From: Gammaproteobacteria bacterium
GTDB lineage: Bacteria; Pseudomonadota; Gammaproteobacteria; UBA6429; Thiohalophilaceae
Assembly: GCA_029881995.1 (NCBI GenBank)
Contig: JAOULO010000013.1
Coordinates: 1 to 64,000, forward strand
Length of the DNA: 64,000 nt
Direction of reading: 5' to 3'
Shown: positions 36,840-53,106 of the stretch, one piece after another
How the letters are laid out: each line of letters opens with the position of its first letter
Position numbering within the stretch: the first letter of the stretch is position 1
Translations under genes and position numbers: made by a program
The notes under the pieces: generated by a model
Told to the model about the DNA's origin: nothing
Databases searched by the model: none
What the model saw: the letters and a program-made list of their open reading frames with translations, nothing else

Positions 36840-38162
36840 TTGTTCGAACGTCCAGATGCAGGTGAACGCGCGGTTCTGGTTCACCTTGATTTGCATGCAG
36901 TCACCGAAAAGGACGAACTCCAGGAGTTTAAGGAACTGGTCACCTCAGCAGGCGTAGAGTCAGTTGCTGTGGTGACCGGTGCTCGACGCACTCCCGATCC
37001 CAAATACTTTGTTGGTACTGGTAAGGCCGAAGAGATCCGCGATGTGGTTAATCTCGAAGAGGCCGATGTGGTACTGGTTAACCATGAACTCAGCCCGGTT
37101 CAGGAACGTAACCTGGAATATCTACTCAAGTGTCGGGTTCTGGATCGCACAGGTTTAATCCTGGATATCTTTGCCCAACGTGCCCGTTCCCACGAAGGTA
37201 AGCTACAGGTTGAACTGGCCCAACTTCGACACCTTTCTACCCGCCTGGTCAGAGGCTGGACCCACCTTGAACGTCAGAAGGGGGGTATTGGCCTTCGAGG
37301 ACCGGGGGAAACCCAGCTGGAAACCGACCGCCGTTTATTGGGTATGCGCATCAAGCAGCTCAAGGCAAAACTCAACAAAGTGCGTAAGCAGCGAGAACAG
37401 GGCAGGCGAGGTCGTAAAAGGGCTGATATCCCGACGGTTTCTCTGGTGGGTTATACCAATGCCGGAAAATCTACTCTATTTAATCAATTGACAGAAGCCG
37501 GTGTTTACGCAGCCGATCAGTTGTTCGCGACCCTGGACCCCACCCTGCGGCGTATTGAATTACCGGATCGCCAACCGGCGGTCCTGGCAGATACCGTTGG
37601 GTTTATTCGTCATTTACCACACGACCTGGTGGAGTCTTTCCGTTCTACCTTACAGGAGACTCAGGAGGCAGACCTGCTTTTGCATATCGTCGATGCCTCC
37701 AGTGAAGACCGACAGGTCAATATTGAACAGGTCAACCAGGTTCTTGAAGAGATTGGCGCTGATGAATGTCCTCAGCTTGAGATCTACAACAAGATTGATC
37801 TGATTGATGGCAGAGAGCCCCAGATAGAAAGGGACGATCTGGGGAGTCCTGTGCGTGTCTGGGTCTCTGCATTAAAAGGGCAGGGACTGGAACTGATCCT
37901 TGAGGCCGTGACCGAATGCCTGCAATCAGAGCGTATCCACCAGACGGTTTGTTTACCACCCAGTATGGGCAAACTTCATGCCCGGCTGTATGCCCTTGGT
38001 GCAGTTTCTCAAGAGGAAATTGCCCAGGATGGTTTTTGGCTAATGAGACTGGAAATGCCCCGTGCTGACTGGGACAGTTTGTGCAAACATGAAACTATCG
38101 ATGACTACATTTTATCCACTGATCAAAGCCCATGCCTTGCGGCTGGCGGCGAAGCTCAATAG
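36840..38162 (+). CDS. hflX: ribosome-associated GTPase HflX
   Basis: 440 residues. N-terminal HflX domain, coiled linker with the LETDRRLL motif, then a GTPase: G1 GYTNAGKSTLFNQL near residue 205, G3 DTVGF and G4 NKID. It splits stalled or heat-damaged ribosomes. Starts with TTG preceded by GGGAG. Its end overlaps an upstream in-frame extension of hflK that I reject. Confidence 0.95.
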   Translation: MFERPDAGERAVLVHLDLHAVTEKDELQEFKELVTSAGVESVAVVTGARRTPDPKYFVGTGKAEEIRDVVNLEEADVVLVNHELSPVQERNLEYLLKCRVLDRTGLILDIFAQRARSHEGKLQVELAQLRHLSTRLVRGWTHLERQKGGIGLRGPGETQLETDRRLLGMRIKQLKAKLNKVRKQREQGRRGRKRADIPTVSLVGYTNAGKSTLFNQLTEAGVYAADQLFATLDPTLRRIELPDRQPAVLADTVGFIRHLPHDLVESFRSTLQETQEADLLLHIVDASSEDRQVNIEQVNQVLEEIGADECPQLEIYNKIDLIDGREPQIERDDLGSPVRVWVSALKGQGLELILEAVTECLQSERIHQTVCLPPSMGKLHARLYALGAVSQEEIAQDGFWLMRLEMPRADWDSLCKHETIDDYILSTDQSPCLAAGGEAQ

Positions 38163-38236
38163 AATGCACCCTTCCTGTGGCTGAAACATTTGCCGCAATA
38201 TTTAACCGATTATTTAGACGACATTTGGAGAATTAC

Positions 38237-39403
38237 ATGGCCTGGAATGAACCCGGTGGTTCCGGCAATAAAGATCCCTGGGGCGGTCGTAATGACCAGC
38301 AAGGTCCCCCCGATCTGGACGAAATCATCAAAAAATTGCAGAAGAAATTTTCCGGCCTGTTTGGTGGCAAAGGTGGTGGTGGCAGCAATGGCAGTGGTGC
38401 TGGTATGGGCAAAGCAGGTGCCGGTGGTGCCAGCTTTTTCCTGATCCTGGTACTGGCCGTCTGGGCCCTGTCCGGTATTTATATCGTTGACGAAGGTCGC
38501 CAGGGCGTGGTTTTACAATTTGGTGCCTTCAAGGAAATTTCCGACCCTGGCCCTCACTGGTATCCCCGCTTTATTCAATCTGTCGAAGTTGTGAATGTTG
38601 ATCAGGTTCGCAGTGTGAACCTGGGGCTACGTAAGGACGAAGGATTGATGCTGACCCAGGATGAAAACATCGTCGATATCAAATTTACCATCCAGTACAA
38701 GGTAAAGGATGCACGCAATTTCCTGTTTAATGTTCGTGACCCAGATGCGACTTTGCGGCAGGCAACCGAAAGTGCCATGCGTGAAATTGTCGGTAAGAAT
38801 GGCATGGATTTCGTCATTAAAGATGGTCGTCCCCAGGTCGGGGCACGCACCAAGCTACTGATCCAGGAAATCCTGGATGGCTATAAAACAGGTATTCTCG
38901 TCAGCCAGCTCAACTTACAGGATGCACAACCACCTCAACAGGTACAGCATGCCTTTAACGATGCCATCAAAGCCCGTGAGGATGAACAACGCCAGATCAA
39001 TGAAGCGGAAGCCTATTCCAATGACATACTGCCAAAGGCACGTGGTGCTGCAGCACGTATGATTCAGGAAGCGGAAGCCTACCGCGAGCAGGTTGTTTCC
39101 CGAGCCAAGGGTGAGGCGGAACGCTTTACCAAGGTGCTGGTTGAGTACAACAAGGCACCAAAAGTCACACGTCAACGTTTGTATCTTGAAGCGATGGAAA
39201 CGGTTCTGTCCAGAACCAACAAGGTCATGATTGATGTTAAGAAGGGTAATAGTATGATTTATTTACCACTAGATAAAATTGTTCGTCAGGGTGGTTCAAG
39301 TCAATCGCAATTGAATTCTACTGATAACAGCAGCAGTGAACCCGCGACTACGACACAACGTGAATCACGTCGTGATCGCTTCCGCACTCGGGAGGTACGC
39401 TAA
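38237..39403 (+). CDS. hflK: FtsH protease modulator HflK
   Basis: 388 residues from ATG 38237 (GGAG six bases upstream). Glycine-rich cytoplasmic head (FGGKGGGGSNGSGAG), one transmembrane helix, then a periplasmic SPFH/band-7 domain and coiled coil (EAEAYREQVVSRAKGEAERF). With HflC it forms a large cage around FtsH. An ORF start at 38132 would overlap hflX by 31 bases and lacks a site. Confidence 0.95.
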   Translation: MAWNEPGGSGNKDPWGGRNDQQGPPDLDEIIKKLQKKFSGLFGGKGGGGSNGSGAGMGKAGAGGASFFLILVLAVWALSGIYIVDEGRQGVVLQFGAFKEISDPGPHWYPRFIQSVEVVNVDQVRSVNLGLRKDEGLMLTQDENIVDIKFTIQYKVKDARNFLFNVRDPDATLRQATESAMREIVGKNGMDFVIKDGRPQVGARTKLLIQEILDGYKTGILVSQLNLQDAQPPQQVQHAFNDAIKAREDEQRQINEAEAYSNDILPKARGAAARMIQEAEAYREQVVSRAKGEAERFTKVLVEYNKAPKVTRQRLYLEAMETVLSRTNKVMIDVKKGNSMIYLPLDKIVRQGGSSQSQLNSTDNSSSEPATTTQRESRRDRFRTREVR

Positions 39404-40282
39404 ATGAATGCCATGAAAATGTCTCTCCTGGTGATAATTGCTGTGGCCGTATTTGTGTTGCTTTCAACCATATTCACGGTCACTGAAAAAGAACTGGCCA
39501 TGAAGTTCCGTCTTGGTGAAATCGTTAAAACCGATTATGAACCTGGCCTGCATTTCAAGTTGCCGTTTATCAATAATATTCGCAAGTTCGATAAACGTAT
39601 CCTGACGCTGGATGCTCGTCCGGCCCTGTATTTGACCAAGGAAAAGAAGAACGTGAACGTGGACTTCTTTGTGAAGTGGCGTATCCGTGAAGTTGCGACC
39701 TATTACAAATCCATGTCAGGGGGTAATGAACGTACTGCCATGGAACGCATCTATACTATTATCAATGATAGTTTGCGTGATGAGTTTAGTAAGCGCACCA
39801 TTCTGGAATTACTCTCTGGTGAACGTAGAGAAATCATGGATACCACCACCAAAGTTTCTAATGAACAGGTTACGAAGTTTGGCATTGAAGTTGTAGACGT
39901 GCGTATCAAGCGTATCGATTACTCCGAAGATATCAGTGAATCAGTCTTTAATCGCATGGTTGCTGAACGTACTCGTGTTGCCAAAGATTATCGTTCCCGT
40001 GGTGCGGAAGCGGCAGAAAAGATTCGTGCTGATGCGGATCGTAAGGTAACGGTTCTGAAAGCTGAGGCCTATAGCCAGTCACAGAAAGTCCGTGGTTCCG
40101 GTGATGCCAAGGCGTCAGAGATTTATGCCCGCGCCTATAGTCGCAATCCTGAGTTCTATTCATTCTATCGAAGCCTCGACGCCTATCGTAACGTTTTCAA
40201 TAATGAGAATGATATGCTGGTACTCGAACCTGATTCTGAGTTTTTTGATTACTTCAAAAAGAAACGTAGTCTGAGCAAATAA
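39404..40282 (+). CDS. hflC: FtsH protease modulator HflC
   Basis: 292 residues with an N-terminal membrane anchor (about 7-23) and an SPFH domain. The partner of HflK, whose stop codon directly abuts this ATG, so the two are translationally coupled. The motif AEAYSQSQKVRGSGDAKASE in the coiled region is typical. Confidence 0.95.
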   Translation: MNAMKMSLLVIIAVAVFVLLSTIFTVTEKELAMKFRLGEIVKTDYEPGLHFKLPFINNIRKFDKRILTLDARPALYLTKEKKNVNVDFFVKWRIREVATYYKSMSGGNERTAMERIYTIINDSLRDEFSKRTILELLSGERREIMDTTTKVSNEQVTKFGIEVVDVRIKRIDYSEDISESVFNRMVAERTRVAKDYRSRGAEAAEKIRADADRKVTVLKAEAYSQSQKVRGSGDAKASEIYARAYSRNPEFYSFYRSLDAYRNVFNNENDMLVLEPDSEFFDYFKKKRSLSK

Positions 40283-40302
40283 TCAGGAATCCAGGATAGA
40301 CT

Positions 40303-40491
40303 ATGTGGCAGGAGATATTAATTGCAGTGGCGCTGGTGATGGTTATCGAAGGACTGTTACCAGCGATCAACCCACGAGCCTTTCGCCGTACTATGCAGGT
40401 AATGACAGAGATGGATGACCGTTTTCTGCGAACCTGGGGATTGATTATTATGACTATCGGTGCTGTGCTGCTTTATTTTGCCAAATCCTGA
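40303..40491 (+). CDS. DUF2065 small membrane protein (YjeT-like)
   Basis: 62 residues, two hydrophobic segments (about 4-22 and 44-60) around the conserved INPRAFRRTMQVMTEMDDRFLR. Found between hflC and purA in many gammaproteobacteria (yjeT). Function is unknown; the location suggests a link to HflKC. Confidence 0.88.
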   Translation: MWQEILIAVALVMVIEGLLPAINPRAFRRTMQVMTEMDDRFLRTWGLIIMTIGAVLLYFAKS

Positions 40492-40521
40492 TAGTCGAAA
40501 TATCAACAAGAAGTCATATCA

Positions 40522-41703
40522 ATGAAAGAAATCGACCGCTGGTTATTGCCTGAAGGCATTGAAGAAGTCCTACCGCCCCAGGCCCGTCAACTGGAGTCTT
40601 TACGTCGCCGGTTGCTTGACCTTTATGACAGCTGGGGTTATGACCTGGTGATGCCTCCCTTCATTGAGTACCTTGAATCACTCCTGATTGGTACGGGCTA
40701 CGATTTAGATCTGAAAACATTCAAACTCACTGATCAACTTACGGGAAGATTGATGGGGGTGCGAGCGGATATGACGCCTCAGGTGGCTCGTATCGACGCC
40801 CATCATCTCAAGAGTCATACCCCCACACGTCTGTGTTACCTGGGTACTGTGTTGCACACACGTCCCAGTGGTTTCGGTGCCTCTCGTAGTCCATTACAGG
40901 TCGGTGCTGAACTCTATGGCCATGCCGGAGTGGAAAGTGATATAGAAATACTCTCCCTCATGGTCGAGACATTGCGTCTATGTGGTGTGAAGGAAAGTTA
41001 TTTTGATCTAGGACATGTCGGTATTTTTCGTGGTCTGGCAAAACAGGCAAGTCTTAGTGCGCAGCAGGAAGATGAGCTTTTTGATGTGTTACAAAGAAAG
41101 TCTCGTCCGGATATGCTGGTTTTATTTGAGAAATGGTCGCTGGATAAAAAACTGGCAGAAAAATTTCTTGGCCTGTCCGAGCTTAATGGGGATGTCACGA
41201 TTCTGGGTGAAGCCGGCAAGCTGCTTAAAGGTAGTGGCAAGTCAGTATTAGACGCGCTTGCTTATCTTGAGAGTATGGCGGGGATGATCAGTCAACGTTT
41301 ACCTGATGTCACCGTCCATTTTGATCTCGCCGAGTTGCGCGGATATAACTATCACACCGGTGCAGTGTTCGCCGCTTTTGTACCAGGGCGTGGTAGTGCC
41401 GTTGCTCAGGGTGGTCGCTATGATGATATTGGCGAGGTTTTTGGGCAGGCCCGTCCTGCAACCGGTTTTAGCACCGATTTAAAAACATTATTGTCTTTAT
41501 CTGAGACGCAAAAGGCCTCTGTTTCTGGTATTTTTGCACCCTCTGAACAGGACGATGTCCTGGTAAAACAGGTTCTTGAACTGCGTCAACAGGGTGAGCG
41601 GGTTGTTGTAGCGCTGCCAGGCCAACAGGGTGGCGCTGTTGAGATGGGCTGTGATCGGCAACTGCTGAAAAAAAATAATCAATGGCAAGTTGAACCGGTT
41701 TAA
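40522..41703 (+). CDS. hisZ: ATP phosphoribosyltransferase regulatory subunit
   Basis: 393 residues, a class-II histidyl-tRNA-synthetase-like paralogue without aminoacylation role. It activates the short form of HisG in histidine synthesis. Signs: LPEGIEEVLPPQARQLESLR head and the HisRS-like motif 2/3 remnants (FDLAELRGYNYHTGAVF). It implies a short-form hisG elsewhere. Located between DUF2065 and purA as usual. Confidence 0.93.
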   Translation: MKEIDRWLLPEGIEEVLPPQARQLESLRRRLLDLYDSWGYDLVMPPFIEYLESLLIGTGYDLDLKTFKLTDQLTGRLMGVRADMTPQVARIDAHHLKSHTPTRLCYLGTVLHTRPSGFGASRSPLQVGAELYGHAGVESDIEILSLMVETLRLCGVKESYFDLGHVGIFRGLAKQASLSAQQEDELFDVLQRKSRPDMLVLFEKWSLDKKLAEKFLGLSELNGDVTILGEAGKLLKGSGKSVLDALAYLESMAGMISQRLPDVTVHFDLAELRGYNYHTGAVFAAFVPGRGSAVAQGGRYDDIGEVFGQARPATGFSTDLKTLLSLSETQKASVSGIFAPSEQDDVLVKQVLELRQQGERVVVALPGQQGGAVEMGCDRQLLKKNNQWQVEPV

Positions 41704-41726
41704 CGATTTAATTAATCACTTTATGA

Positions 41727-43049
<1,323 letters not shown>

Positions 43050-43084
43050 TTGAAAACCCAATAACAGGTCTTCAGCTAGAATTA

Positions 43085-43112
43085 AAACCCGGTCCAGTGG
43101 ACCGGGTTTTTT
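43085..43112. terminator. intrinsic terminator after purA
   Basis: AAAACCCGGTCCA and TGGACCGGGTTTT form an uninterrupted stem ending in T7. It lies 12 bases before the stop of the converging ATP-grasp gene and may serve both. Confidence 0.92.
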
Positions 43113-43124
43113 TATTGCGTGTGT

Positions 43125-44606
43125 TTAAATGCCGATGCGTTTTCTTTCCAGGCGCCGGATGAACTCTTCCAGGATGATGCGATAGAGATCATCTTTTAGA
43201 AATACCGCTTCCACACTTGAATCAATATTGGGGTTATCGTTAACCTCAATGACCACGCCAGAATCACCAATCTGTTTTACATCCACACCGTATAGTCCAT
43301 CACCGATCAGGTTAGCAGCCCGGCTTGCCAGATTAAGGATTTTTTTTGGTGTTTCATAAACCGGTATAGTCTGAAAGTCGCCAGACTCAACCCGACCAGA
43401 TTCATTGTGTTTATAGATTTGCCAGTGTCCACGAGACATAAAGTATTTACAGGAAAAAATCGGTTTTTTATTCAATATACCAATACGCCAGTCATAATCG
43501 GTATAGGTAAAGGCCTGTGCTAATACCAGAGCGGACTGTTTAAAGAGTTCGCTGGTATGTTGTTTTAGATCAGCCATCGTTTCAACTTTAACGATTCCCC
43601 GAGAGAATGAACCATCCGGTATCTTTAATACCATGGGAAAACCCAGCGCCTCACTGGCAGTTTGCAGGTCTTCTTTTTGTCTGTCCTTGCTCAGTATCAG
43701 TGTGCTGGGAGTGGGTATGCCATTGGCATTGAGTAAATCAGCAAGATATATCTTATTTGTACAACGCAGGATAGATTGTGGGTCATCAATCACCACCATA
43801 CCTTCACTTTCAGCCCGTTTGGCAAAACGATAGGTATGATTATCAATAGTGGTGGTTTCACGAATGAACAGGGCATCATATTCTGCCAGACGGATGTAAT
43901 CTTTTTTTGTGATAAGCTCAACATTGATTCCCAGTTGTTTGCCAATGCTGACAAATTTTTTAAGCGCCATTTTGTCACTGGGGGGTAATTTTTCTTCCGG
44001 GTCAGTCAGTACTGCCAGATCATATCGATAGCGTTTTCTCGATTTAGGTTTGCGCCATACGGCTTTATTAAATCTTTCCAGTGCTTCAGCAAAGAGATCT
44101 TCTTCCTGGACTTCAAGGGTATTGATCGAGCCAGGTTTAATAGACTCAATATACCAACGCTCACGGTGTTTGATAGTCAGAACCAGAATAGGACATGGAA
44201 AGAGTTCAAAAACCTGTCGTCCCAGGTTTTCCAGTTCATGAATATCTGTACTACCAAAAAAGAGCTTGATGGTCAGACTGTCACCCTGCAAAGGACGCTC
44301 TTTCAGGGCCTTCTCCAGTAACAGGTTCTGATTGGTAATGTCCAGACTATAGAGGGACTTATTACTCAGGTCATTGATACTGCGGACACTGGGAATAACC
44401 TTGTGATTACGAGCTTCTGCCAACAGGGAGCAATAGTAACCATTGGTCAGGTATTTATAGCTACGACACAGGTTAATGACCTGAGTAGAGGTACTATTAC
44501 CTTGATAGGTTTGAGATAGGTAGTCCTGGACGCTGATAACATTGTCCGAGGGATAGTAAGCCGTCCAGTCCTGTGGATTATCGACGACAATTAAAACAGT
44601 ATGCAT
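43125..44606 (-). CDS. RimK-like ATP-grasp ligase with RLAN-type N-terminal domain
   Basis: 493 residues. Residues of about 1-150 match my knowledge of the RLAN domain that precedes some RimK-like ATP-grasps (VLIVVDNPQDW start, CRSYKYLTNGYYCSLLAEAR). The ATP-grasp follows: FIRETTTIDNHTYRFAKRAE, LGFPMVLKIPDGSFSRGIV, and metal ligands in VIEVNDNPNIDSS. The enzyme class forms amide bonds by acyl-phosphate, adding amino acids to a peptide or small acid. It is divergent from the DUF2817 and GNAT-peptidase genes, the context in which this family is predicted to make small peptides. Substrate unknown. Confidence 0.85.
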   Translation of the reverse strand: MHTVLIVVDNPQDWTAYYPSDNVISVQDYLSQTYQGNSTSTQVINLCRSYKYLTNGYYCSLLAEARNHKVIPSVRSINDLSNKSLYSLDITNQNLLLEKALKERPLQGDSLTIKLFFGSTDIHELENLGRQVFELFPCPILVLTIKHRERWYIESIKPGSINTLEVQEEDLFAEALERFNKAVWRKPKSRKRYRYDLAVLTDPEEKLPPSDKMALKKFVSIGKQLGINVELITKKDYIRLAEYDALFIRETTTIDNHTYRFAKRAESEGMVVIDDPQSILRCTNKIYLADLLNANGIPTPSTLILSKDRQKEDLQTASEALGFPMVLKIPDGSFSRGIVKVETMADLKQHTSELFKQSALVLAQAFTYTDYDWRIGILNKKPIFSCKYFMSRGHWQIYKHNESGRVESGDFQTIPVYETPKKILNLASRAANLIGDGLYGVDVKQIGDSGVVIEVNDNPNIDSSVEAVFLKDDLYRIILEEFIRRLERKRIGI

Positions 44607-44612
44607 GAGAGT

Positions 44613-44687
44613 TCAGTGAGTAAAAGGTAACAACAACACAAGCTGCATAAGCAGGAAAGAGAAAAAAAGAATAACAATTTTTTTCAT
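44613..44687 (-). CDS. possible 24-residue hydrophobic peptide upstream of the ATP-grasp gene
   Basis: ATG 44687 to TGA 44613-44615 encodes MKKIVILFFSFLLMQLVLLL then PFTH: a lysine pair followed by a hydrophobic helix, six bases before the ATP-grasp ATG. No ribosome-binding site is visible, so it may be chance. If translated it would be a membrane or leader peptide coupled to the ligase gene. Confidence 0.3.
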   Translation of the reverse strand: MKKIVILFFSFLLMQLVLLLPFTH

Positions 44688-44745
44688 AAAGGATGGAAAG
44701 TTAATTTTCCTCGACTATACCTAATGCAGTTTTATCACCCACAGT

Positions 44746-45864
44746 ATGAACATGTTACCTACCCTGTTACCCGCCGACCTGCTTGCAGCCTGTTTTTCTG
44801 AAGATTATGTTACTGCGCGTGACAGGTTCAGACAACATGTCTGTGATCGGCAAGAGGATAGCCGATACAAGGAATTTGTCTATAGGGAAAAAGGGCCAAG
44901 TGATGAAAAATTATTAACGGCAATTGCCTGGCAGGGTAAGGCAGATGCCAGCAAGGTACTTGTGATCCAGAGTGGAACCCATGGTGTTGAAGGTTTTGCC
45001 GGTGCGGCGATTCAAATTGATAATCTTAACTATTGGCAAAACCGTTTATTACCAGACGATATGGCTATCTTATATATTCATGCCATTAATCCCTATGGCT
45101 TTGCCTGGCTTAGGAGGGTCAACGAAGCGGGGATTGATCTTAATCGAAATTTTATCGATTTCAGTCAAACATTGCCGGATAATCCTGGCTATCGTGAGCT
45201 GGCCACAGCACTTTTACCTGAAATCGAGACTCAGTGGTCAACGGCCAATGAAGTGATGGATACTTATCGTCAACAACATGGACAGCTTAAGTTTGAAGAG
45301 GCCGTCAGCGGTGGCCAGTATGAGTTTGCAAACGGCTTATTTTATGGTGGACAGTCAGCTAGTCAGTCACGACTTTACATGGAAGCCATTTTTGATGAAT
45401 TGGAACTGGCCAGTCGGCAACAGCTTGCTGTGATTGATGTCCATACAGGGCTGGGTCCCTTTGCTTATGGGGAAATCATATGTGATCACCCGCCAGGTTC
45501 AAAGGCCGTAGCCTGGGCAAAAAAAGTCTATGGTGAGAGTGTCACTGAGCCAGCACTTGGCACATCAAGCTCAGTACCCAAGCTAGGGCTGATTGATTAT
45601 TTCTGGCAGCAAAGACTCCAGGATCGGGTCTGTTTTATTACTCTGGAATTTGGTACTTATGATGTTGCACAGATGTTTGAAGTACTGCGACAGGATCATT
45701 TATTGCACCGTCAACCGATTGATTGGAACAATAGTCATACCCGGCAGGTCAAACAGGCCATGCGTAGACAGTTTTATCCCGCTACACCGGACTGGCAGGA
45801 GATGGTCATCCTTCGAGGTCGGCAGCTTATCCAGCAGGCTATCTATGGAATGAGTGAGAACTAA
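44746..45864 (+). CDS. DUF2817 zinc carboxypeptidase-like (M14-fold) protein
   Basis: 372 residues. The M14-type zinc ligands are visible: His79 and Glu82 in SGTHGVEGFAG, His233 in IDVHTGLGP; Glu301 in TLEFGTYD is a fit for the catalytic glutamate. INEAGIDLNRNF-like segment near 125-136 (NEAGIDLNRNF) supplies the substrate Arg/Asn. No signal peptide, so cytoplasmic. It could trim or release an amino acid from the product of the divergent ATP-grasp ligase. Its stop overlaps the start of the GNAT-peptidase gene. Confidence 0.83.
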   Translation: MNMLPTLLPADLLAACFSEDYVTARDRFRQHVCDRQEDSRYKEFVYREKGPSDEKLLTAIAWQGKADASKVLVIQSGTHGVEGFAGAAIQIDNLNYWQNRLLPDDMAILYIHAINPYGFAWLRRVNEAGIDLNRNFIDFSQTLPDNPGYRELATALLPEIETQWSTANEVMDTYRQQHGQLKFEEAVSGGQYEFANGLFYGGQSASQSRLYMEAIFDELELASRQQLAVIDVHTGLGPFAYGEIICDHPPGSKAVAWAKKVYGESVTEPALGTSSSVPKLGLIDYFWQQRLQDRVCFITLEFGTYDVAQMFEVLRQDHLLHRQPIDWNNSHTRQVKQAMRRQFYPATPDWQEMVILRGRQLIQQAIYGMSEN

Positions 45865-47011
45865 ATTGCAGTCTAAAGATTCAAACATGCCAGCATCCAT
45901 ACTGCTTGAACAGGCGAAGCCAGAAGATGTGGAGGCCCTGTATGAACTGGAAACCCGTTATTTTGATTATGATAGGTTATCCCGGCGTAGTTTTCGCTGG
46001 ATGATCCAGAAAGGCAATTGTGATTTTATCCTGGCAAAAGATGAGAACAATATTATTGGGTATGTCCTGGTGCTGTATCACAGAGGTACCCACCTGGCCC
46101 GGCTCTATTCTTTTCTTGTTATTCCTAAATACCGCGGTAAAGGGATCGCCGATATTCTGTTGCAACACGGTGAAAAACTGGCGGCGGGTCGGAACTGTAT
46201 CTATATGCGTCTTGAAGTGCACCCAAAGAATCAAACCGCAATTCGTTTTTATGAACGTCATGCCTATCACCCCTTTGGTCTTTTCAAGGATTATTATGAA
46301 GACCATGCTGATGCCCTGCGCTATCAAAAGCGTATTCTCTACCCAGATGAGCAGATGAATTTCTTTCCTGTTCCCTATTATCAACAAACCACAGATTTTA
46401 CCTGTGGCCCGGCATCCTTGATCATGGCCATGCAGGCCTTGTATAAATCAATCAAACCAGACCGTTCCATGGAGTTACAACTTTGGCGTGAGGCAACCAC
46501 TATTTACATGACCTCAGGGCATGGTGGCTGCAGTCCAACCGGATTAGCCCTGGCAGCATGGCGGCGAAATTTTAAGGTTGAAGTCTGGATAAATACGCAA
46601 GCACCCCCGTTCCTTGATGGTGTTCGAAGTGAAAAGAAAAAGGCAGTGATGGCGCTGGTACATGAAGATTTTCTACAGCAGATCAAAGAGACGGATATCC
46701 TTATTCACAACGAAGAGATGGAACTGTCCCAGTTGGATGAATGTCTGCAGCAGGGTGGTCTATCGATGGTACTCATTAGTAGTTACCGTTTTACCCGTAA
46801 TAAGGCACCACACTGGGTTGTGGTGAGTGGTGCGGATGAGACCTTTATATATATTCATGATCCGGAAGAGGATGAAGACAGTTATCGTTCACAAACAGAT
46901 AACCTCTACCTACCCATCGCCCGTGAGGTGTTTAACAAGGCTTTTCGTTTTGGACAGTCGGGTTTACGGACAGCGGTCACTATCTATCCTCGTAAAAAAG
47001 ATAAAGATTGA
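45854..47011 (+). CDS. GNAT acetyltransferase fused to a papain/C39-like peptidase
   Basis: 385 residues in two domains. GNAT (about 14-160) has the acetyl-CoA loop VIPKYRGKGIADILL. The C39-like cysteine-peptidase domain (about 170-380) has Cys184 in DFTCGPASLIMAM, His320 in APHWVVVSG and Asp336 in IHDPEED, a complete triad. GTG 45854 overlaps the previous stop by 11 bases; ATG 45887 is an alternative that starts nearer the GNAT domain. This fusion is the known companion of RLAN-ATP-grasp proteins. Substrates unknown. Confidence 0.85.
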   Translation: MRTKLQSKDSNMPASILLEQAKPEDVEALYELETRYFDYDRLSRRSFRWMIQKGNCDFILAKDENNIIGYVLVLYHRGTHLARLYSFLVIPKYRGKGIADILLQHGEKLAAGRNCIYMRLEVHPKNQTAIRFYERHAYHPFGLFKDYYEDHADALRYQKRILYPDEQMNFFPVPYYQQTTDFTCGPASLIMAMQALYKSIKPDRSMELQLWREATTIYMTSGHGGCSPTGLALAAWRRNFKVEVWINTQAPPFLDGVRSEKKKAVMALVHEDFLQQIKETDILIHNEEMELSQLDECLQQGGLSMVLISSYRFTRNKAPHWVVVSGADETFIYIHDPEEDEDSYRSQTDNLYLPIAREVFNKAFRFGQSGLRTAVTIYPRKKDKD

Positions 47012-47048
47012 CCATGCCCGGCTTTGGGTATATATAGCGACCTGACTT

Positions 47049-47726
47049 TTGTTGAGAAATGCCTGCTTGAATACCTTAACCAGCCCGCTCGGGCCTTTTG
47101 ATGGTGATCCCTATGCCCAGATTATCTCCTCCCTGCGTGAACGGGGTTATATTATTCTGAACCATGTTTTTCCAACAGCCATGCTGGAGTCGTTGTTTAT
47201 CGACATTAAACAGACCGATAGAGAAGCATTTCATGACGCAGGTATTGGTCGCGAGCAGGAGCACCAGTTAAACCCGTTTGTTAGAAGAGATCGAATCCAC
47301 TGGTTGAGTAATACGTATGAAAATACAACTGAGTATTTCAACTGGATGGAGCAGTTACGTATAAGGCTGAATCGGGAACTTTATCTGGGGCTTTTCGATT
47401 ATGAGTGCCACTACGCCCATTACCCGCAGGGGGCTTTTTATAAGAAACATCTGGATGCCTTTCAGGGTAATACCATTCGTCGCCTGACGACAATTCTCTA
47501 CCTGAACCCGGCCTGGCAGCCCCAGGATGGTGGCGAGTTAGTGATGTATGCCCATGATGGGGAGACCATACTGGAAACGGTACAACCGACCTTTGGTATC
47601 CTGGTGATTTTTCTGAGTGAAGAATTCCCTCATGAGGTATTGCCAGCCAATGTTTCTCGTTACAGCCTGACGGGCTGGTTCCGTATCAATAACAGCACGG
47701 GATTGAACCTGGATCCACCGGAATAG
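47049..47726 (+). CDS. 2-oxoglutarate/Fe(II) dioxygenase of the prolyl-hydroxylase type
   Basis: 225 residues. The iron triad is His134 and Asp136 in YKKHLDAF and His195 in FPHEVLPA, with Arg204 (SRYSLTGWFR) for 2-oxoglutarate. The pattern resembles the bacterial PHD/EGLN-like enzymes, of which the Pseudomonas member hydroxylates a proline of EF-Tu. It starts with TTG, 37 bases after the GNAT-peptidase gene; no other start is near. It may modify EF-Tu, or instead the product of the neighbouring peptide cluster. Confidence 0.83.
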   Translation: MLRNACLNTLTSPLGPFDGDPYAQIISSLRERGYIILNHVFPTAMLESLFIDIKQTDREAFHDAGIGREQEHQLNPFVRRDRIHWLSNTYENTTEYFNWMEQLRIRLNRELYLGLFDYECHYAHYPQGAFYKKHLDAFQGNTIRRLTTILYLNPAWQPQDGGELVMYAHDGETILETVQPTFGILVIFLSEEFPHEVLPANVSRYSLTGWFRINNSTGLNLDPPE

Positions 47727-47821
47727 GTGAAAATGTCTTTTAATAGGAGAAAACTGAGGATTCAATATTCATCAGATAAAAACCATGAGCTGAGGTACTT
47801 ATTCATCATGGTTTGTTAGAA

Positions 47822-47908
47822 TGGTGCCGAGGAGAGGACTTGAACCTCCACGGGGTTGCCCCCACTAGCACCTGAAGCTAGCGCGTCTACCAATTCCACC
47901 ACCTCGGC
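47822..47908 (-). tRNA. tRNA-Leu (anticodon CAG)
   Basis: A full class-II tRNA on the minus strand: acceptor GCCGAGG/CCTCGGC, D-arm with GGAATTGGTAGACGC, anticodon loop TTCAGGT (CAG), a short variable arm GTGGGGGCAACCCC, TΨC loop GGTTCAAGTCC and encoded CCA. Reads CUG. It lies alone between the dioxygenase gene and rnr. Confidence 0.96.
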
Positions 47909-48050
47909 GATAGACAGTTGAACTGTCTGAGAGCGGCGCACTTTACCGGGAGTCTTTGGCCTTGTCAATGATGCGTGCACCAGAATTCTGTATAGTGTGC
48001 CGGCCTGACCCATTTGGGCTGGGCCGGCCAGCGAAGTAAATGAAGAGAAA

Positions 48051-50360
48051 ATGACAAAAAAACCAACAGATAAAGACCCTTACGCTAAACGCGAGAAGGA
48101 AAAATACGATAATCCTATCCCCAGCCGTGAATTTATCATGGAGCTGCTGGATGAGCATGGCACGATTAACCGTGAGCAGATTGCGGCACTTTTGAACCTC
48201 ACCGATGAGGATCAACTGGAGGCCCTGCGCCGGCGAATGCGCGCCATGGAGCGGGATGGGCAGGTGATTTATACCCGTAAGGGAGGCTATGGCCTGGTGA
48301 GTAAAATGGACCTTATTAAGGGACGGGTGCAGGGCCATCGTGATGGCTTTGGATTCCTGATTCCCGACGAAGGTGGGGATGACCTGTTCCTCTCTGCCCG
48401 GGAAATGAAATCACTAATGAACGGTGACCGGGTCATGGTGCATGTGAAGGGTATCGACCGTCGTGGCCGCCGAGAAGGCGGGGTTATCGAGATCTTGGAG
48501 CGAAATACCCATACTGTCGTCGGCCGACTGTTTGTCGAAGGTGGTGTCTGCTTTGTCGTACCGGATAACAAGCGCCTGACTCAGGATATTCTGATCCCCA
48601 AGGAGAATCTGGCCGGGGCCAGCCATGGTCAGATCGTCAGTGTTGAGATTGTCGAACAGCCCAGTAAGTATCGTCAGGCCATCGGTAAGGTGGTGGAGAT
48701 CCTGGGCGACCATATGGCGCCAGGCATGGAAATCGATATCGCCATGCGCAGCCATGATATTCCTGAAGGCTGGTCTCCCGAGGCCGAGCATGAGGCCACT
48801 GTGTTTACAGAGGAGGTGCCGGAAGATGCCAAACAGGGTCGTGAAGATATTCGTGATCTTCCCCTGGTGACCATCGATGGGGAAGATGCCCGAGATTTTG
48901 ATGATGCAGTGTACTGTGAAAAACAGGGCAGCGGTTGGCGTCTGCTGGTAGCCATTGCCGATGTGTCGGCCTATGTCAAACCCGGCATGGCCCTGGACAG
49001 TGATGCGGCGGAACGAGGGACTTCGGTCTATTTCCCTGAGCGGGTCATCCCCATGTTGCCGGAAGTCCTCTCAAATGGTTTATGCTCCATCAATCCCGAT
49101 GTGGATCGCCTCTGCATGGTGTGTGAGCTAAACCTGAACACCATTGGCGAGGTGAAAAACTATCGCTTTTTCGAAGGGGTGATGCGTTCCCATGCTAGGC
49201 TGACCTATACCAAGGTGGCGGCCATGCTGGTGGATTATGATGAACCGTTGCGTTACCAGTATGAAGCCGTCTTGCCTTACCTTGAAAACCTGTATGACCT
49301 GTACAAGCTGTTATCGAAATCCCGTCGGCAACGCGGTGCAATTGATTTCGAAACAACCGAGACACGTATTGTATTTGGTGAAGGTCGCAAGATTGATCGT
49401 ATTGTGCCACTAGTACGTAATGATGCCCATAAACTGATTGAAGAATGCATGCTGCTGGCCAACGTGGCCGCTGCCGATTTTCTGAAATTCAATAAAATGC
49501 CGGCCCTGTTCCGTGTCCATGAAGGACCAAATGATGAAAAGCTGATTGCCCTTAGAGAGTTTTTATCCGAGCTGGGGCTGGATCTTGGCGGTGGGGATGA
49601 TCCTGAACCTGGACACTATGCAAAGTTACTCAACAGTATAAAAGATCGCCATGATGCCCATTTAATACAAACCGTGATGTTACGCAGCCTGAGGCAGGCA
49701 GTGTATACCCCGGACAATGCCGGTCACTTTGGTCTTGCCTTCGATGCCTATGCCCATTTTACTTCACCGATACGACGTTACCCTGACCTGCTGGTACATC
49801 GCGCCATCCGGCATATTATTCGCGGTGGTACAGCCGAGGACTTTGCCTATAACCATGATCAGATGGTGCATCATGGGGAGCACTGTTCCATGACCGAACG
49901 GCGAGCCGATGAGGCCACTCGTGATGCAGTGGACTGGCTGAAGTGTGAATTCATGCTGGACAAGATTGGTGAAGAATTCGAAGGTGTCATTAGCAGTGTT
50001 ACTGGATTTGGTTTGTTCATTGAACTGAATGATATCTATGTCGAGGGGCTGGTGCATGTTACTTCCCTGGGTAATGATTATTATCACTTTGATCCCAATC
50101 ATCATCGAATGATTGGTGAACACAGCCGCCATATTTATCGTCTTGGTGACCGTATTCGGGTTATTGTCGCTCGTGTCGATCTGGATGATCGCAAGATCGA
50201 TTTTGAACTGGCAGATGGTCAGCCGACCAACACATCAAGTACTAGGGAACAGGAGAGTGCTGATAAGATAGTTAAAAAGGCCAAAAAAGAAAGTAAGAAA
50301 AAGGTAAAGAAAAAGGCTTCAAAAAAGAAGGTCCGGCGTAAAAGTAAAAAGCGACATTAA
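48051..50360 (+). CDS. rnr: ribonuclease R
   Basis: A 769-residue 3'-5' exoribonuclease. Order: N-terminal winged helix (about 22-85), cold-shock domains, RNB catalytic domain with the DGEDARDFDDAVY metal cluster near 277-289, an S1 domain (GEEFEGVISSVTGFGLFIEL) and a long lysine-rich tail. It degrades structured RNA. GAAGAG precedes the ATG. Its downstream partner rlmB is separated by the EAL gene on the other strand. Confidence 0.96.
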   Translation: MTKKPTDKDPYAKREKEKYDNPIPSREFIMELLDEHGTINREQIAALLNLTDEDQLEALRRRMRAMERDGQVIYTRKGGYGLVSKMDLIKGRVQGHRDGFGFLIPDEGGDDLFLSAREMKSLMNGDRVMVHVKGIDRRGRREGGVIEILERNTHTVVGRLFVEGGVCFVVPDNKRLTQDILIPKENLAGASHGQIVSVEIVEQPSKYRQAIGKVVEILGDHMAPGMEIDIAMRSHDIPEGWSPEAEHEATVFTEEVPEDAKQGREDIRDLPLVTIDGEDARDFDDAVYCEKQGSGWRLLVAIADVSAYVKPGMALDSDAAERGTSVYFPERVIPMLPEVLSNGLCSINPDVDRLCMVCELNLNTIGEVKNYRFFEGVMRSHARLTYTKVAAMLVDYDEPLRYQYEAVLPYLENLYDLYKLLSKSRRQRGAIDFETTETRIVFGEGRKIDRIVPLVRNDAHKLIEECMLLANVAAADFLKFNKMPALFRVHEGPNDEKLIALREFLSELGLDLGGGDDPEPGHYAKLLNSIKDRHDAHLIQTVMLRSLRQAVYTPDNAGHFGLAFDAYAHFTSPIRRYPDLLVHRAIRHIIRGGTAEDFAYNHDQMVHHGEHCSMTERRADEATRDAVDWLKCEFMLDKIGEEFEGVISSVTGFGLFIELNDIYVEGLVHVTSLGNDYYHFDPNHHRMIGEHSRHIYRLGDRIRVIVARVDLDDRKIDFELADGQPTNTSSTREQESADKIVKKAKKESKKKVKKKASKKKVRRKSKKRH

Positions 50361-50376
50361 GGTTTTGCCAGATGTC

Positions 50377-51600
50377 TTACAGCTTTACATTTAGCAGGGT
50401 GACCACATCAGGGTAGGGCATGGGTTCTGACAGGAAAAATCCCTGCGCCATGTCTGCCCCAAATTCTCTGACGATGTTTAATTGATCCTCAGTTTCAACA
50501 CCTTCGGCAATCACTTTAAGGTCGACTGCTTTAGCAAGATCTATAATAGAACGAATGATTGTCATGCTGGTTGAGCGGGTATACATGGTCTCAATAAAAC
50601 TATGATCAATCTTAATGTAATCTATGGGGAAGGCATGGAGATAACCCATGCTTGAATAACCGTTACCAAAGTCATCAATGGCAACCTGGAAACCAAGTTG
50701 TTTGAGTTTATTTAATATATTCAATGCTGATTCAGGATCTTGCATGAGAATATTCTCGGTAATCTCCAGCATAATCCGGGATGGATCAACGTTATGATTG
50801 AGGATAGATGATTTAATATTTTCCAGGAAATCAGTATAAATTAACTGCTTTGCTGACAGGTTAATACTAATAAAAAAATCCGGGCAGTCAGAATTAATGC
50901 CAGGTAAATCTCGAGCAAGTCTGGAAAAATCAGAGCAGGCAGAATCTATTATATATTCACCCAGTTTTTTGATAAGGCTGGTTTTTTCGGCAATAGGGAT
51001 AATCTCTCCGGCAGATATGACATCACCTTCTGGGTGATTCCAGCGAATGAGCGCCTCCATTCCGACAATTTTGTTATTTTCAAAGGATGTAATAGGCTGG
51101 TAATAAAGTTCAAACTGTTGATTATCGATGGCCTCGGATAACTCCTTTTCCGCCATGATCAAATTGACCGCCTCTGCACGATCATGCTGATACTCCGGAT
51201 CTTTCTTTTTCTTTAAGTCGTAGTATTCATCCTGGTCTGACTTACTTAATGGTGAGGGATTTGTTTTACGACGATGATACATTATTGTTCGAATCATCAG
51301 ACTAACAACCGGGTGGACATCATTCATTGCAATATCAAACAGTGAACGATAAATGGTAATCACTTCGGTGGGTTCTAGAGCCGTCACTGTTGCTGAACGT
51401 GGTGAGTTGTCAATGAGTGACATTTCCCCAACCAGGTCACCTGCGCTGTACTCAGCCAGCACTTGCTTATTTCCCTTGCGGGTGATGGAGACTTCCACCC
51501 GACCTTTTTCAATAATAAAGGCGTTGTTACCCGGCTCACCCTCAAAATAAATCACAGCGCCTTCCGGGTAAAAATGGGTGTAGGAAGAGGTCGATTTCAT
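50377..51600 (-). CDS. cNMP-binding/EAL-domain c-di-GMP phosphodiesterase
   Basis: 407 residues: a cNMP-binding fold (about 8-115, with GDLVGEMSLIDNSPRSATV phosphate-cassette) then an EAL domain (about 160-400). The catalytic set looks complete: MEALIRW, NLSAKQL, ITENILM, DDFGNGYSS, IKIDHSF and EGVET. It should hydrolyse c-di-GMP, perhaps under cAMP or cGMP control; both are inference. No membrane segment. It interrupts the usual rnr-rlmB pair, facing rnr. Confidence 0.86.
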   Translation of the reverse strand: MKSTSSYTHFYPEGAVIYFEGEPGNNAFIIEKGRVEVSITRKGNKQVLAEYSAGDLVGEMSLIDNSPRSATVTALEPTEVITIYRSLFDIAMNDVHPVVSLMIRTIMYHRRKTNPSPLSKSDQDEYYDLKKKKDPEYQHDRAEAVNLIMAEKELSEAIDNQQFELYYQPITSFENNKIVGMEALIRWNHPEGDVISAGEIIPIAEKTSLIKKLGEYIIDSACSDFSRLARDLPGINSDCPDFFISINLSAKQLIYTDFLENIKSSILNHNVDPSRIMLEITENILMQDPESALNILNKLKQLGFQVAIDDFGNGYSSMGYLHAFPIDYIKIDHSFIETMYTRSTSMTIIRSIIDLAKAVDLKVIAEGVETEDQLNIVREFGADMAQGFFLSEPMPYPDVVTLLNVKL

Positions 51601-51822
51601 GTCAGTCGATTTCTTATCATAATGGCTTACTTGAGTTCTCTTATCGGCTGATGGTAGGGCTAGTTTAATCCGAGATTCAGAACTTTGAACTTGTTAAGTT
51701 ATTTAAAATTAATGAAAAATGTTTATCCCGGATACCCGGTGGCAATGAATATTTTTATTTACAGGTGTATTAACGGTGTGGTGTTACAATAGTCCACCTG
51801 CTAACCATTGAGTCTGAAATCC

Positions 51823-52572
51823 ATGTCATCGAAACAGCTGATCTATGGCCTGCACGCTGTTCAGGCCCTGCTTGATAAGGAGCCGGAGTCGGTTTCTGTC
51901 ATCTGGATTGACAAGTCAAGACATGACAAGCGCCTGCAGACGGTTCTTGGCCTGGCTAAAATGGCCGGGATCAAAATCCAGAAACTGGAACGTAAAATGC
52001 TGGATGAACTTTCTGGTCATCAGCAGCATCAGGGTGTGGTGGCAGAGTCTTCTGTTAGTGGTGTCTGGGACGAGGCCCGCCTGATGTCACTGCTGGAGAG
52101 TCTGGATGAACCCCCATTTCTGCTGATCCTCGATGGGGTGACCGATCCCCATAACCTGGGGGCCTGTCTGCGTAGTGCCAATGGGGCCGGGATCCATGCC
52201 GTGATTGCTCCAAAGGACAAGGCCTGCTCTCTGACCGGTACGGTCCGTAAAGTGGCGAGTGGAGCAGCTGAAAGCACGCCCTTGGTACAGGTCACCAACC
52301 TGGCCCGCACCCTGGGCAAACTCAAGGAGCAGGGGATCTGGCTGGTCGGCACCACCGGCAATGCAAGCCAGAGCCTGTATGAGACTGATCTGAAAGGTCC
52401 ATTGGGTATTGTGATGGGAGCCGAAGGGCAGGGTATGCGCCGCCTGACGACGGAGGCCTGTGATTTTCTGGTCAAGCTACCCATGCTGGGGCAGGTGGAG
52501 AGTCTCAATGTCTCTGTGACCACGGGAATTTGCCTTTATGAGGCGGTACGCCAGAGACAGAATTCCCGCTAA
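51823..52572 (+). CDS. rlmB: 23S rRNA (Gm2251) 2'-O-methyltransferase
   Basis: 249 residues, SpoU/TrmH family. N-terminal substrate-binding domain (IYGLHAVQALL), then the knotted SAM domain: LDGVTDPHNLGACLRSANGAG (two joined parts), VMGAEGQGMRRL and LPMLGQVESLNVSVTTGI. ATG 51823 is preferred to TTG 51808. Confidence 0.94.
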   Translation: MSSKQLIYGLHAVQALLDKEPESVSVIWIDKSRHDKRLQTVLGLAKMAGIKIQKLERKMLDELSGHQQHQGVVAESSVSGVWDEARLMSLLESLDEPPFLLILDGVTDPHNLGACLRSANGAGIHAVIAPKDKACSLTGTVRKVASGAAESTPLVQVTNLARTLGKLKEQGIWLVGTTGNASQSLYETDLKGPLGIVMGAEGQGMRRLTTEACDFLVKLPMLGQVESLNVSVTTGICLYEAVRQRQNSR

Positions 52573-52576
52573 TTCA

Positions 52577-52605
52577 TTGCATTAGACTATTTCCTCCAGT
52601 AAAAT
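52577..52605 (+). promoter_or_regulatory. sigma70-type promoter of the rpsF operon
   Basis: TTGCAT (52577-52582), a 17-bp spacer and TAAAAT (52600-52605) lie about 95 bp before rpsF, leaving room for a regulatory leader. Confidence 0.6.
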
Positions 52606-52652
52606 GCCCGACCTTTATCGGCCTCGGCTGATTACAATTTGTTTAACTCCTT

Positions 52653-52676
52653 GCCTCACCGCACTGAACGGGAGGC
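52653..52676 (+). promoter_or_regulatory. S6:S18 mRNA leader hairpin (candidate)
   Basis: The rpsF leader folds as GCCTC/GAGGC (52653-52657 with 52672-52676) around ACCGCACTGAACG, with a CCG trinucleotide paired to CGG. Known S6:S18 binding motifs in rpsF leaders use a CCG next to a hairpin to mimic the 16S rRNA site, so this is a likely autogenous control site. Confidence 0.45.
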
Positions 52677-52698
52677 TTTATAACCGTAGGGAGCGCAT

Positions 52699-53106
52699 AT
52701 GCGACACTATGAAATTGTGTTTCTGGTCCACCCTGACCAGAGTGAACAGGTACCCGCAATGATTGAAAAATATCGTGCCGGTATCGAAGGCAAAAGCGGC
52801 ACGATCCACCGTCTCGAAGACTGGGGCCGTCGTCAACTGGCCTATCCTATCCAGAAGGTTCATAAAGCCCATTACGTACTGATGAATATCGAGTGCGGCC
52901 AGGATGCCCTGGACGAACTGGAAAGTAACTTCAAATTTAACGATGCAGTAATTCGTCACATGACCATTCGTCGTAATGCAGCCATTACTGAAGAGTCTCC
53001 TTTAACTAAGAAGGAAGAAGAGGAACGTGCTCCTCGTTCAGCACCACCTGCACCCACAACTGCTGTTGATGGTGATGCAGCCCAACCTACAGTTCAGGAG
53101 GGATAA
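52699..53106 (+). CDS. rpsF: 30S ribosomal protein S6
   Basis: 135 residues with [20 protein letters not shown] at the start and [17 protein letters not shown]. It carries an acidic/low-complexity tail of about 30 residues, as S6 is glutamylated in some bacteria. TAGGGAGC precedes the ATG. First gene of rpsF-rpsR-DUF2232-rplI. Confidence 0.97.

Follow-up and report, generated by a model that had tools for sequence, protein, structure and literature searches.

An RLAN/ATP-grasp ligase and a GNAT-DUF3335 fusion at the centre of a putative peptide-tailoring locus in a gammaproteobacterium

What holds four adjacent enzyme genes together in a gammaproteobacterium of the Thiohalophilaceae, and what might they do? 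The genes lie at 43125-47726 of a 64,000-nucleotide stretch (the window; positions 1 to 64,000 of contig JAOULO010000013.1, GenBank assembly GCA_029881995.1), where an earlier note, made from the sequence alone, had proposed a peptide-tailoring locus; all four open reading frames (ORFs) are present there. They encode an RLAN/ATP-grasp ligase (A), a DUF2817 protein (B), a GNAT-DUF3335 fusion (C) and a prolyl hydroxylase-like dioxygenase (D). Comparison across genomes gives a graded answer: A and C are a real, widespread and conserved pair, B is a recurrent, though not obligatory, companion located between them, and D is a lineage-specific addition. As to function, the locus may be an accessory, mobile peptide-tailoring cassette in which A would extend the substrate, B would trim it, and C would cap it with its GNAT half and cleave or transfer it with its papain-like half, a reading to which we give about an even chance.

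Linkage of the ligase to its partners

The genes were followed through a class-wide draw of 184 gammaproteobacterial genomes and a separate set of 58 relatives. RLAN was found in 42 of the 184 and full-length DUF3335 (E < 1e-70) in 29; in 26 of these 29 the two lay on one contig, 93-1839 bp apart, a spacing that excludes chance for A and C. The exceptions were G092 (different contigs), G174 (no RLAN) and G215, whose DUF3335 is incomplete and on another contig and whose RLAN gene lies 388 bp from a contig end. Among the relatives, RLAN occurred in 15 genomes and full DUF3335 in 14, adjoining RLAN in all 14. The window conforms, its GNAT-DUF3335 gene being in the same block as the RLAN ligase, and the earlier note's claim that RLAN/ATP-grasp proteins are tied to GNAT-papain fusions is borne out by the 26 genomes in which the two are within 2 kb. 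The note had named RLAN genes without the other enzymes nearby as a refuting observation: among the 42 genomes, 26 have DUF3335 within 2 kb, four a GNAT half and nine a C39-like protein, and three have no linked partner (G215; G092, with its two contigs; and G137, where none was found).

Among the best 80 of 586 confirmed named loci, a choice that is therefore biased to close relatives, C or its GNAT half stood beside A in 74, at full length in 44 and as GNAT only in 30 (C39 half not reached by any tblastn hit at 1e-5). The pair is present, for example, in L057, from a strain of Pseudomonas simiae. The GNAT-only loci belong to Lysobacterales or to records grouping with Lysobacterales, plus three from Pseudomonas. 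Six loci lacked C: in L062, L122 and L128 the upstream side is cut short, the flanks of L111 are short, and in L098 and L102 there is no C despite 10 kb on both sides. The other neighbours in many non-Pseudomonas loci come, by eye, mostly from Lysobacterales, and the conserved ones beyond A and C look like synteny.

Fourteen of the 42 RLAN genomes are without full DUF3335: nine have a stand-alone C39-like protein, four the GNAT half only and one (G137) neither. The C39-like protein is encoded ~1.1 kb before A in the nine genomes, eight of which also have GCS2 and FGase after A, in the same order; the ninth, G136, has the C39-like protein only. In L047, C39, GCS2, FGase and DUF155 were confirmed by Pfam. 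Read for their neighbours, these 14 genomes show that RLAN is kept together with an acyl-transfer or papain-like partner, whereas the helpers vary. Perhaps FGase and DUF2817 have equivalent roles, each as a hydrolase undoing or trimming.

Some observations stand apart from these counts. Of 111 loci scanned, 7 (L036, L046, L047, L049, L086, L114 and L116) have DUF155 (RMND1/Sif2-Sif3) no more than 4 kb from A, a raw count over both architectures with Pfam confirmation in two; in L036, L046 and L049 it immediately follows A on the same strand. A GNAT-nitrilase (CN_hydrolase) fusion gene adjoins the RLAN cassette in L062 (1961-3505, tblastn) and L159 (5342-6898, Pfam). The 9-kb circular Legionella adelaidensis plasmid NZ_LR134436.1 (L177) has RLAN-like, GCS2-like and N-formylglutamate amidohydrolase genes whose order matches the second RLAN architecture. 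In G171 (L170), one of the four genomes with a GNAT half only, RLAN is broken up across several frames with a GNAT fragment alongside; the pair there seems to have decayed or to be badly assembled.

Full-length DUF2817 (E < 1e-70) is rarer, with 6 of the 184 genomes having it, three with RLAN and three without; in all three with RLAN it lies between A and C. B was found in 11 of the best 80 named loci and stood between A and C in 10, the other (L128) ending at a contig end; the same placement recurs in G119 and G180. L106 and L107, from Methylophaga, are among the loci with A-B-C. B-C junctions are tight, with an overlap of up to 26 bp or a gap of ≤6 bp in 13 of 14 related loci and a 94-bp gap in L086 (start as chosen). 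Start codons at the junctions were picked by script, and the C of L127 was kept in this count though its frame was flagged. On a tree of A, B occupies 14 of 94 rows with six changes, all inside one 26-row group (support 91), which fits one gain followed by losses, or a few gains. This tree was built quickly, its branches are long and support is weak at many of its forks; L038 and L050 were treated as one genome and counted once, in the tree and in the junctions.

The earlier note had also suggested looking for a conserved small peptide nearby, and a graspetide (RiPP) locus would have a conserved precursor beside its ligase. None was recognised by eye in the 260 bp upstream of A in 18 loci, the only place searched. 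A 24-aa hydrophobic ORF just upstream of A was provisionally rejected as a precursor, having no counterpart by eye among the small ORFs of L050 and L051. A 69-aa ORF was likewise rejected: it spans the C start and the divergent C-A gap and was seen, by eye, in only five close Pseudomonas loci (L054, L056-L058 and L063), where it may be regulatory DNA rather than a gene.

Folds and active sites

A belongs to the RLAN ATP-grasp family (PF14401, 173.8 bits; cut-off 25) and also matches the RimK-like ATP-grasp family (32.1 bits; cut-off 21). K285, K328, D442, E454 and N456 are invariant across 48 selected sequences, and the region that holds them aligns with RimK and LysX; we take the role of these residues from this alignment and from the known roles of their counterparts in the two enzymes. 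Residues 193-490 have the predicted fold of LysX, ArgX and RimK (Z 26.3-27.9), with LysX and ArgX scoring as high as RimK and all structure matches confined to the ATP-grasp part (residues 190-493). By this predicted fold, A is a carboxylate-amine ligase, LysX, ArgX and RimK being amino-acid or peptide ligases. Its scores fall under the cut-offs of the RimK families proper (TIGR00768, 82.6 vs 143.4 bits; PRK10446, 24.3 vs 331). Among open-licence papers, none was found that gives any RLAN ligase a function, and the term 'RLAN' itself matched none.

B matches DUF2817 (PF10994) at 344.6 bits, and its AlphaFold model (predicted local distance difference test score, 90.4) has the fold of carboxypeptidases A, B and T, the best VIA-align match having Z 23.4 and a root-mean-square deviation of 2.7 over 262 residues. 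M14 carboxypeptidases score Z 20.8-23.4 over 247-267 residues among the 50 matches listed, at an identity to B of 12-15%. H79, E82, H233, E301, R124, N133 and R134 are invariant in all 17 aligned DUF2817 proteins, an alignment that left out L151 (stop in frame). By pattern and spacing (no superposition), B has the HxxE...H zinc site and the Arg, Asn-Arg and Glu of M14. We take the Arg and Asn-Arg to correspond to the free-carboxylate binders of carboxypeptidase A, and E301 to be of the catalytic Glu type. The pattern as a whole (HxxE, Arg, Asn-Arg, His, Glu) is that of a putative enzyme for free carboxyl ends.

C joins a GNAT domain (PF00583) to DUF3335 (PF11814, 301.2 bits), and overlaps B if the GTG start at 45854 is used. 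Its Cys184, His320 and Asp336 in the 385-aa reading (Cys173, His309 and Asp325 in the 374-aa reading) are invariant in 32 of 32 selected proteins. Frames that failed a check in the A and C selections were those of L052 and L127 (C) and L041 (A). A profile search with the GNAT part returned Ard1-type and other N-terminal acetyltransferases first, with the bS18 acetyltransferase in the best ten, suggesting that this domain is nearest to N-alpha-acetyltransferases; it falls under the RimI cut-off (TIGR01575, 74.4 vs 86.4 bits). One paper describes DUF3335 as often fused to GNAT (PMC10318531).

The dioxygenase and the insertion site

D matches PF13640 at 84.3 bits, and its best solved relative is 4iw3 (E 5.7e-48, D residues 22-214 aligned), the Pseudomonas putida prolyl hydroxylase (PPHD) with EF-Tu. 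His134, Asp136 and His195 align with the same residues of 4iw3, giving D a PPHD-type HxD...H site; the difference from PPHD is that D is encoded in the cassette. With B and C invariant among relatives and D aligned in this way, the catalytic residues that the earlier note had listed for the three proteins are intact. The D ORF starts at TTG, with no ATG ahead of the conserved N-terminal part.

D is linked to RLAN in only three of the genomes examined, all related. Among the 58 relatives there are 14 strong D homologs (E < 1e-30), three in the cassette, five elsewhere in RLAN genomes and six in RLAN-less genomes; in the class-wide draw 34 of 35 strong homologs (E ≤ 1.4e-28) lie outside the cassette. 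The dioxygenase is thus found equally often elsewhere, the outcome named in advance as telling against a four-enzyme unit, and with 34 of 35 and 11 of 14 homologs outside, D is not a defining part. The rest of that proposal fared better: A and C are a conserved unit, B is recurrent, and the A-B-C-D block occurs at three places. A loose D-RLAN association also exists, D-type genes being found in 20 of 42 RLAN genomes vs 15 of 142 others (Fisher p 7e-7, uncorrected for kinship or genome size).

D is the only family match in G000 (the assembly of the window), G001 and G010, the three genomes with D in the cassette, and the EF-Tu of G010 has a proline just before its RGITI stretch. For D, EF-Tu hydroxylation is therefore no less likely than a part in the cassette. 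The same proline is present in the EF-Tu of G017, where the D homolog is unlinked, and it is widespread, so it is weak evidence. PPHD is said to act on EF-Tu (PMC5701443).

The layout of the window is given in Table 1. The block is flanked by purA on one side and by tRNA-Leu(CAG) and rnr on the other, and two genomes of the same genus have purA and then tRNA-Leu(CAG) and rnr with nothing comparable between, in keeping with the earlier note's placement of the locus between core blocks. From the purA stop to the tRNA is 85 bp in G001 and 221 bp in G002, vs 4772 bp in the window. G002 is without RLAN; G001 has A-B-C-D on another contig, where the D side ends at the contig end and A's neighbour is a gene with a weak response-regulator match. 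G010 (L050), of the same family, has the four genes in a third setting, flanked by one gene for an AcrB-type pump and another that is sucrose-phosphatase-like. The four are therefore together at three different places and seem to travel together as a block; we infer rather than observe its movement and the mode of that movement. In the A-tree clade of five that includes the window, D follows C in three (window, G001 and G010). In L051 a patatin gene is next after C, with no D within 10 kb, and L041 has no D beside C, the ORF fragment within 370 bp of C having no assigned family. That fragment (97 aa) was at one point taken for a transposase, an assignment dropped because Pfam gives it no family.

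Table 1. Features of the block and its flanks in the window
Feature	Position	Strand	Basis
purA (Pfam Adenylsucc_synt)	41739-43049		
Inserted block with A-D, purA to tRNA-Leu(CAG)	43050-47821	none	Comparison with two congeners
A: RLAN + RimK-like ATP-grasp, predicted carboxylate-amine ligase, 493 aa	43125-44606	-	Pfam
Divergent intergenic region common to A and B	44607-44745	none	
B: DUF2817, predicted M14-type zinc carboxypeptidase fold, 372 aa	44746-45864	+	Pfam, structure model
C: GNAT fused to DUF3335 papain/C39-like domain	45854 (GTG) or 45887 (ATG) to 47011	+	Pfam
D: putative 2-oxoglutarate prolyl hydroxylase, PPHD/EGLN type, 225 aa	47049-47726	+	PF13640, 4iw3
tRNA-Leu(CAG), 3' end toward block	47822-47908	-	ARAGORN

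A phage or integrative element was considered and rejected. There is no direct repeat joining the tRNA end to the other boundary; the guanine-plus-cytosine fraction of the block (0.445) is ordinary, 47 of 237 equal-length stretches of the 64-kb window being lower; and by eye there is no integrase among the ORFs of 38000-53000. Between A and B, an inverted repeat GGAAAG-N4-CTTTCC (44695-44710) is perfect in two of four aligned sequences and has one mismatch in the window and in L038; it is a possible operator.

What the locus may do

In peptide tailoring as we favour it, A would couple an amino acid (or amine), at the expense of ATP, to a peptide or small acceptor at its carboxyl end. B, divergently encoded from the intergenic region that it shares with A, would take residues off a free carboxyl end and so trim or reverse A's addition. 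The GNAT half of C would acetylate an amino end, its papain/C39-like half would cleave or transfer a peptide, and D would have been added to the cassette in this lineage. By predicted fold and profile match, the cassette appears equipped to act at either end of a peptide or protein tail, and a free peptide and a protein have about equal odds of being the acceptor.

The A-C pair was already known as a prediction: Iyer et al. reportedly described, in 2009 (Mol Biosyst), RLAN/ATP-grasp proteins with GNAT-papain neighbours as a predicted peptide-synthesis system. The window is like that system in that an RLAN and ATP-grasp protein adjoins a GNAT-papain fusion, and unlike it in the M14-type DUF2817 between and the prolyl hydroxylase after, neither of which is known to be part of that description; as far as searched, B and D, the empty site and the comparison of two architectures are what is added. 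Pseudomonas RimK-RimB offers another precedent, in which an ATP-grasp ligase adds residues and a peptidase removes them; RimB, however, is a retropepsin-like aspartic protease (PMC12239564), whereas B has a predicted zinc-carboxypeptidase fold, and A is under the RimK cut-offs. The P. aeruginosa RloABC operon likewise combines an ATP-grasp protein and a peptidase, but RLAN, GNAT and C39 are absent from the main text of that paper (PMC12239564).

Several findings weigh against the tailoring reading. Only three of the 42 RLAN genomes have full-length DUF2817, which makes B dispensable for the core function; D is almost always elsewhere (34 of 35 strong homologs); and the C39 half is unmatched in 30 of the best 80 of the 586 named loci. 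An RLAN copy on a P. aeruginosa plasmid is directly flanked by SDR and aminotransferase genes rather than by a GNAT. No substrate, product or precursor peptide was found, and the sole paper found that mentions DUF3335 assigns it no function in the part available (PMC10318531).

The genes might instead modify the translation machinery, A tagging a ribosomal or translation protein as RimK tags S6, B untagging it, the GNAT acetylating an N-terminus like RimI and D hydroxylating EF-Tu. RimK is indeed among A's nearest solved relatives and the bS18 acetyltransferase among those of C's GNAT, but A and the GNAT score under the RimK and RimI cut-offs, and LysX and ArgX score as high as RimK for A. The case from D rests on its resemblance to 4iw3, the PPHD entry, on its being the sole family match in G000, G001 and G010, and on the proline before RGITI in the EF-Tu of G010; against it, the proline recurs in G017 with its unlinked D homolog, and no EF-Tu gene in the G000 assembly reaches the cut-off, possibly because a repeat was collapsed. 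The reported action of PPHD on EF-Tu (PMC5701443) and the proximity of DUF155 (RMND1 family) genes to RLAN (≤4 kb in 7 of 111 loci) would also fit. On balance we consider this alternative unlikely. An extended form of it, less probable still, would make the block a mobile island for translation modification. A RimK-like writer would be paired with an M14 eraser at the carboxyl tail of some protein of translation or associated with the ribosome, the GNAT would acetylate an amino end, the prolyl hydroxylase would tie the machinery to oxygen via EF-Tu, and DUF155 would be an occasional partner.

It is also rather doubtful that A, B and C make a small N-acetylated peptide, a compatible solute or cofactor like N-acetylglutaminylglutamine amide (NAGGN), with B and the C39 half recycling it and D unrelated. 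The combination of ATP-grasp and GNAT has that logic, and the loci of the second architecture, with their GCS2 and FGase, resemble small-molecule pathways, but no product was found. The NAGGN pathway has an asparagine-synthetase-like amidotransferase beside its ligase; reading the ORFs of 38000-53000 by eye, with no family search aimed at it, showed no such gene. We take PA1345 to be the RLAN gene of P. aeruginosa, going by gene order and gene numbering. A CpxR motif predicted 69 bp upstream of PA1345 would fit a stress role, though the study's DNA affinity purification sequencing did not identify it (PMC12802237). That the four genes are mere neighbours, with A and C a conserved pair and B and D chance captures, is very improbable. 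B is in a minority of loci, D is linked in three of the 14 relatives with a strong homolog, and L051 and L041, two of the window's five-member A clade, are without D beside C; yet in several lineages B recurs at one position, between A and C (14 of 94 tree rows, six changes), and A-B-C-D occurs at three different places in three genomes.

Comparing the two architectures yields a testable grammar, in which an RLAN ligase goes with a papain/C39-like partner, a GNAT partner or both, and the helpers change: GNAT or GCS2 in one case, M14 carboxypeptidase or FGase in the other. From the A/B pair one would predict that a ligase and a carboxypeptidase act on the same bond. Given such antagonism, the substrate should accumulate in extended form without B and disappear without A, which would make it easier to find.

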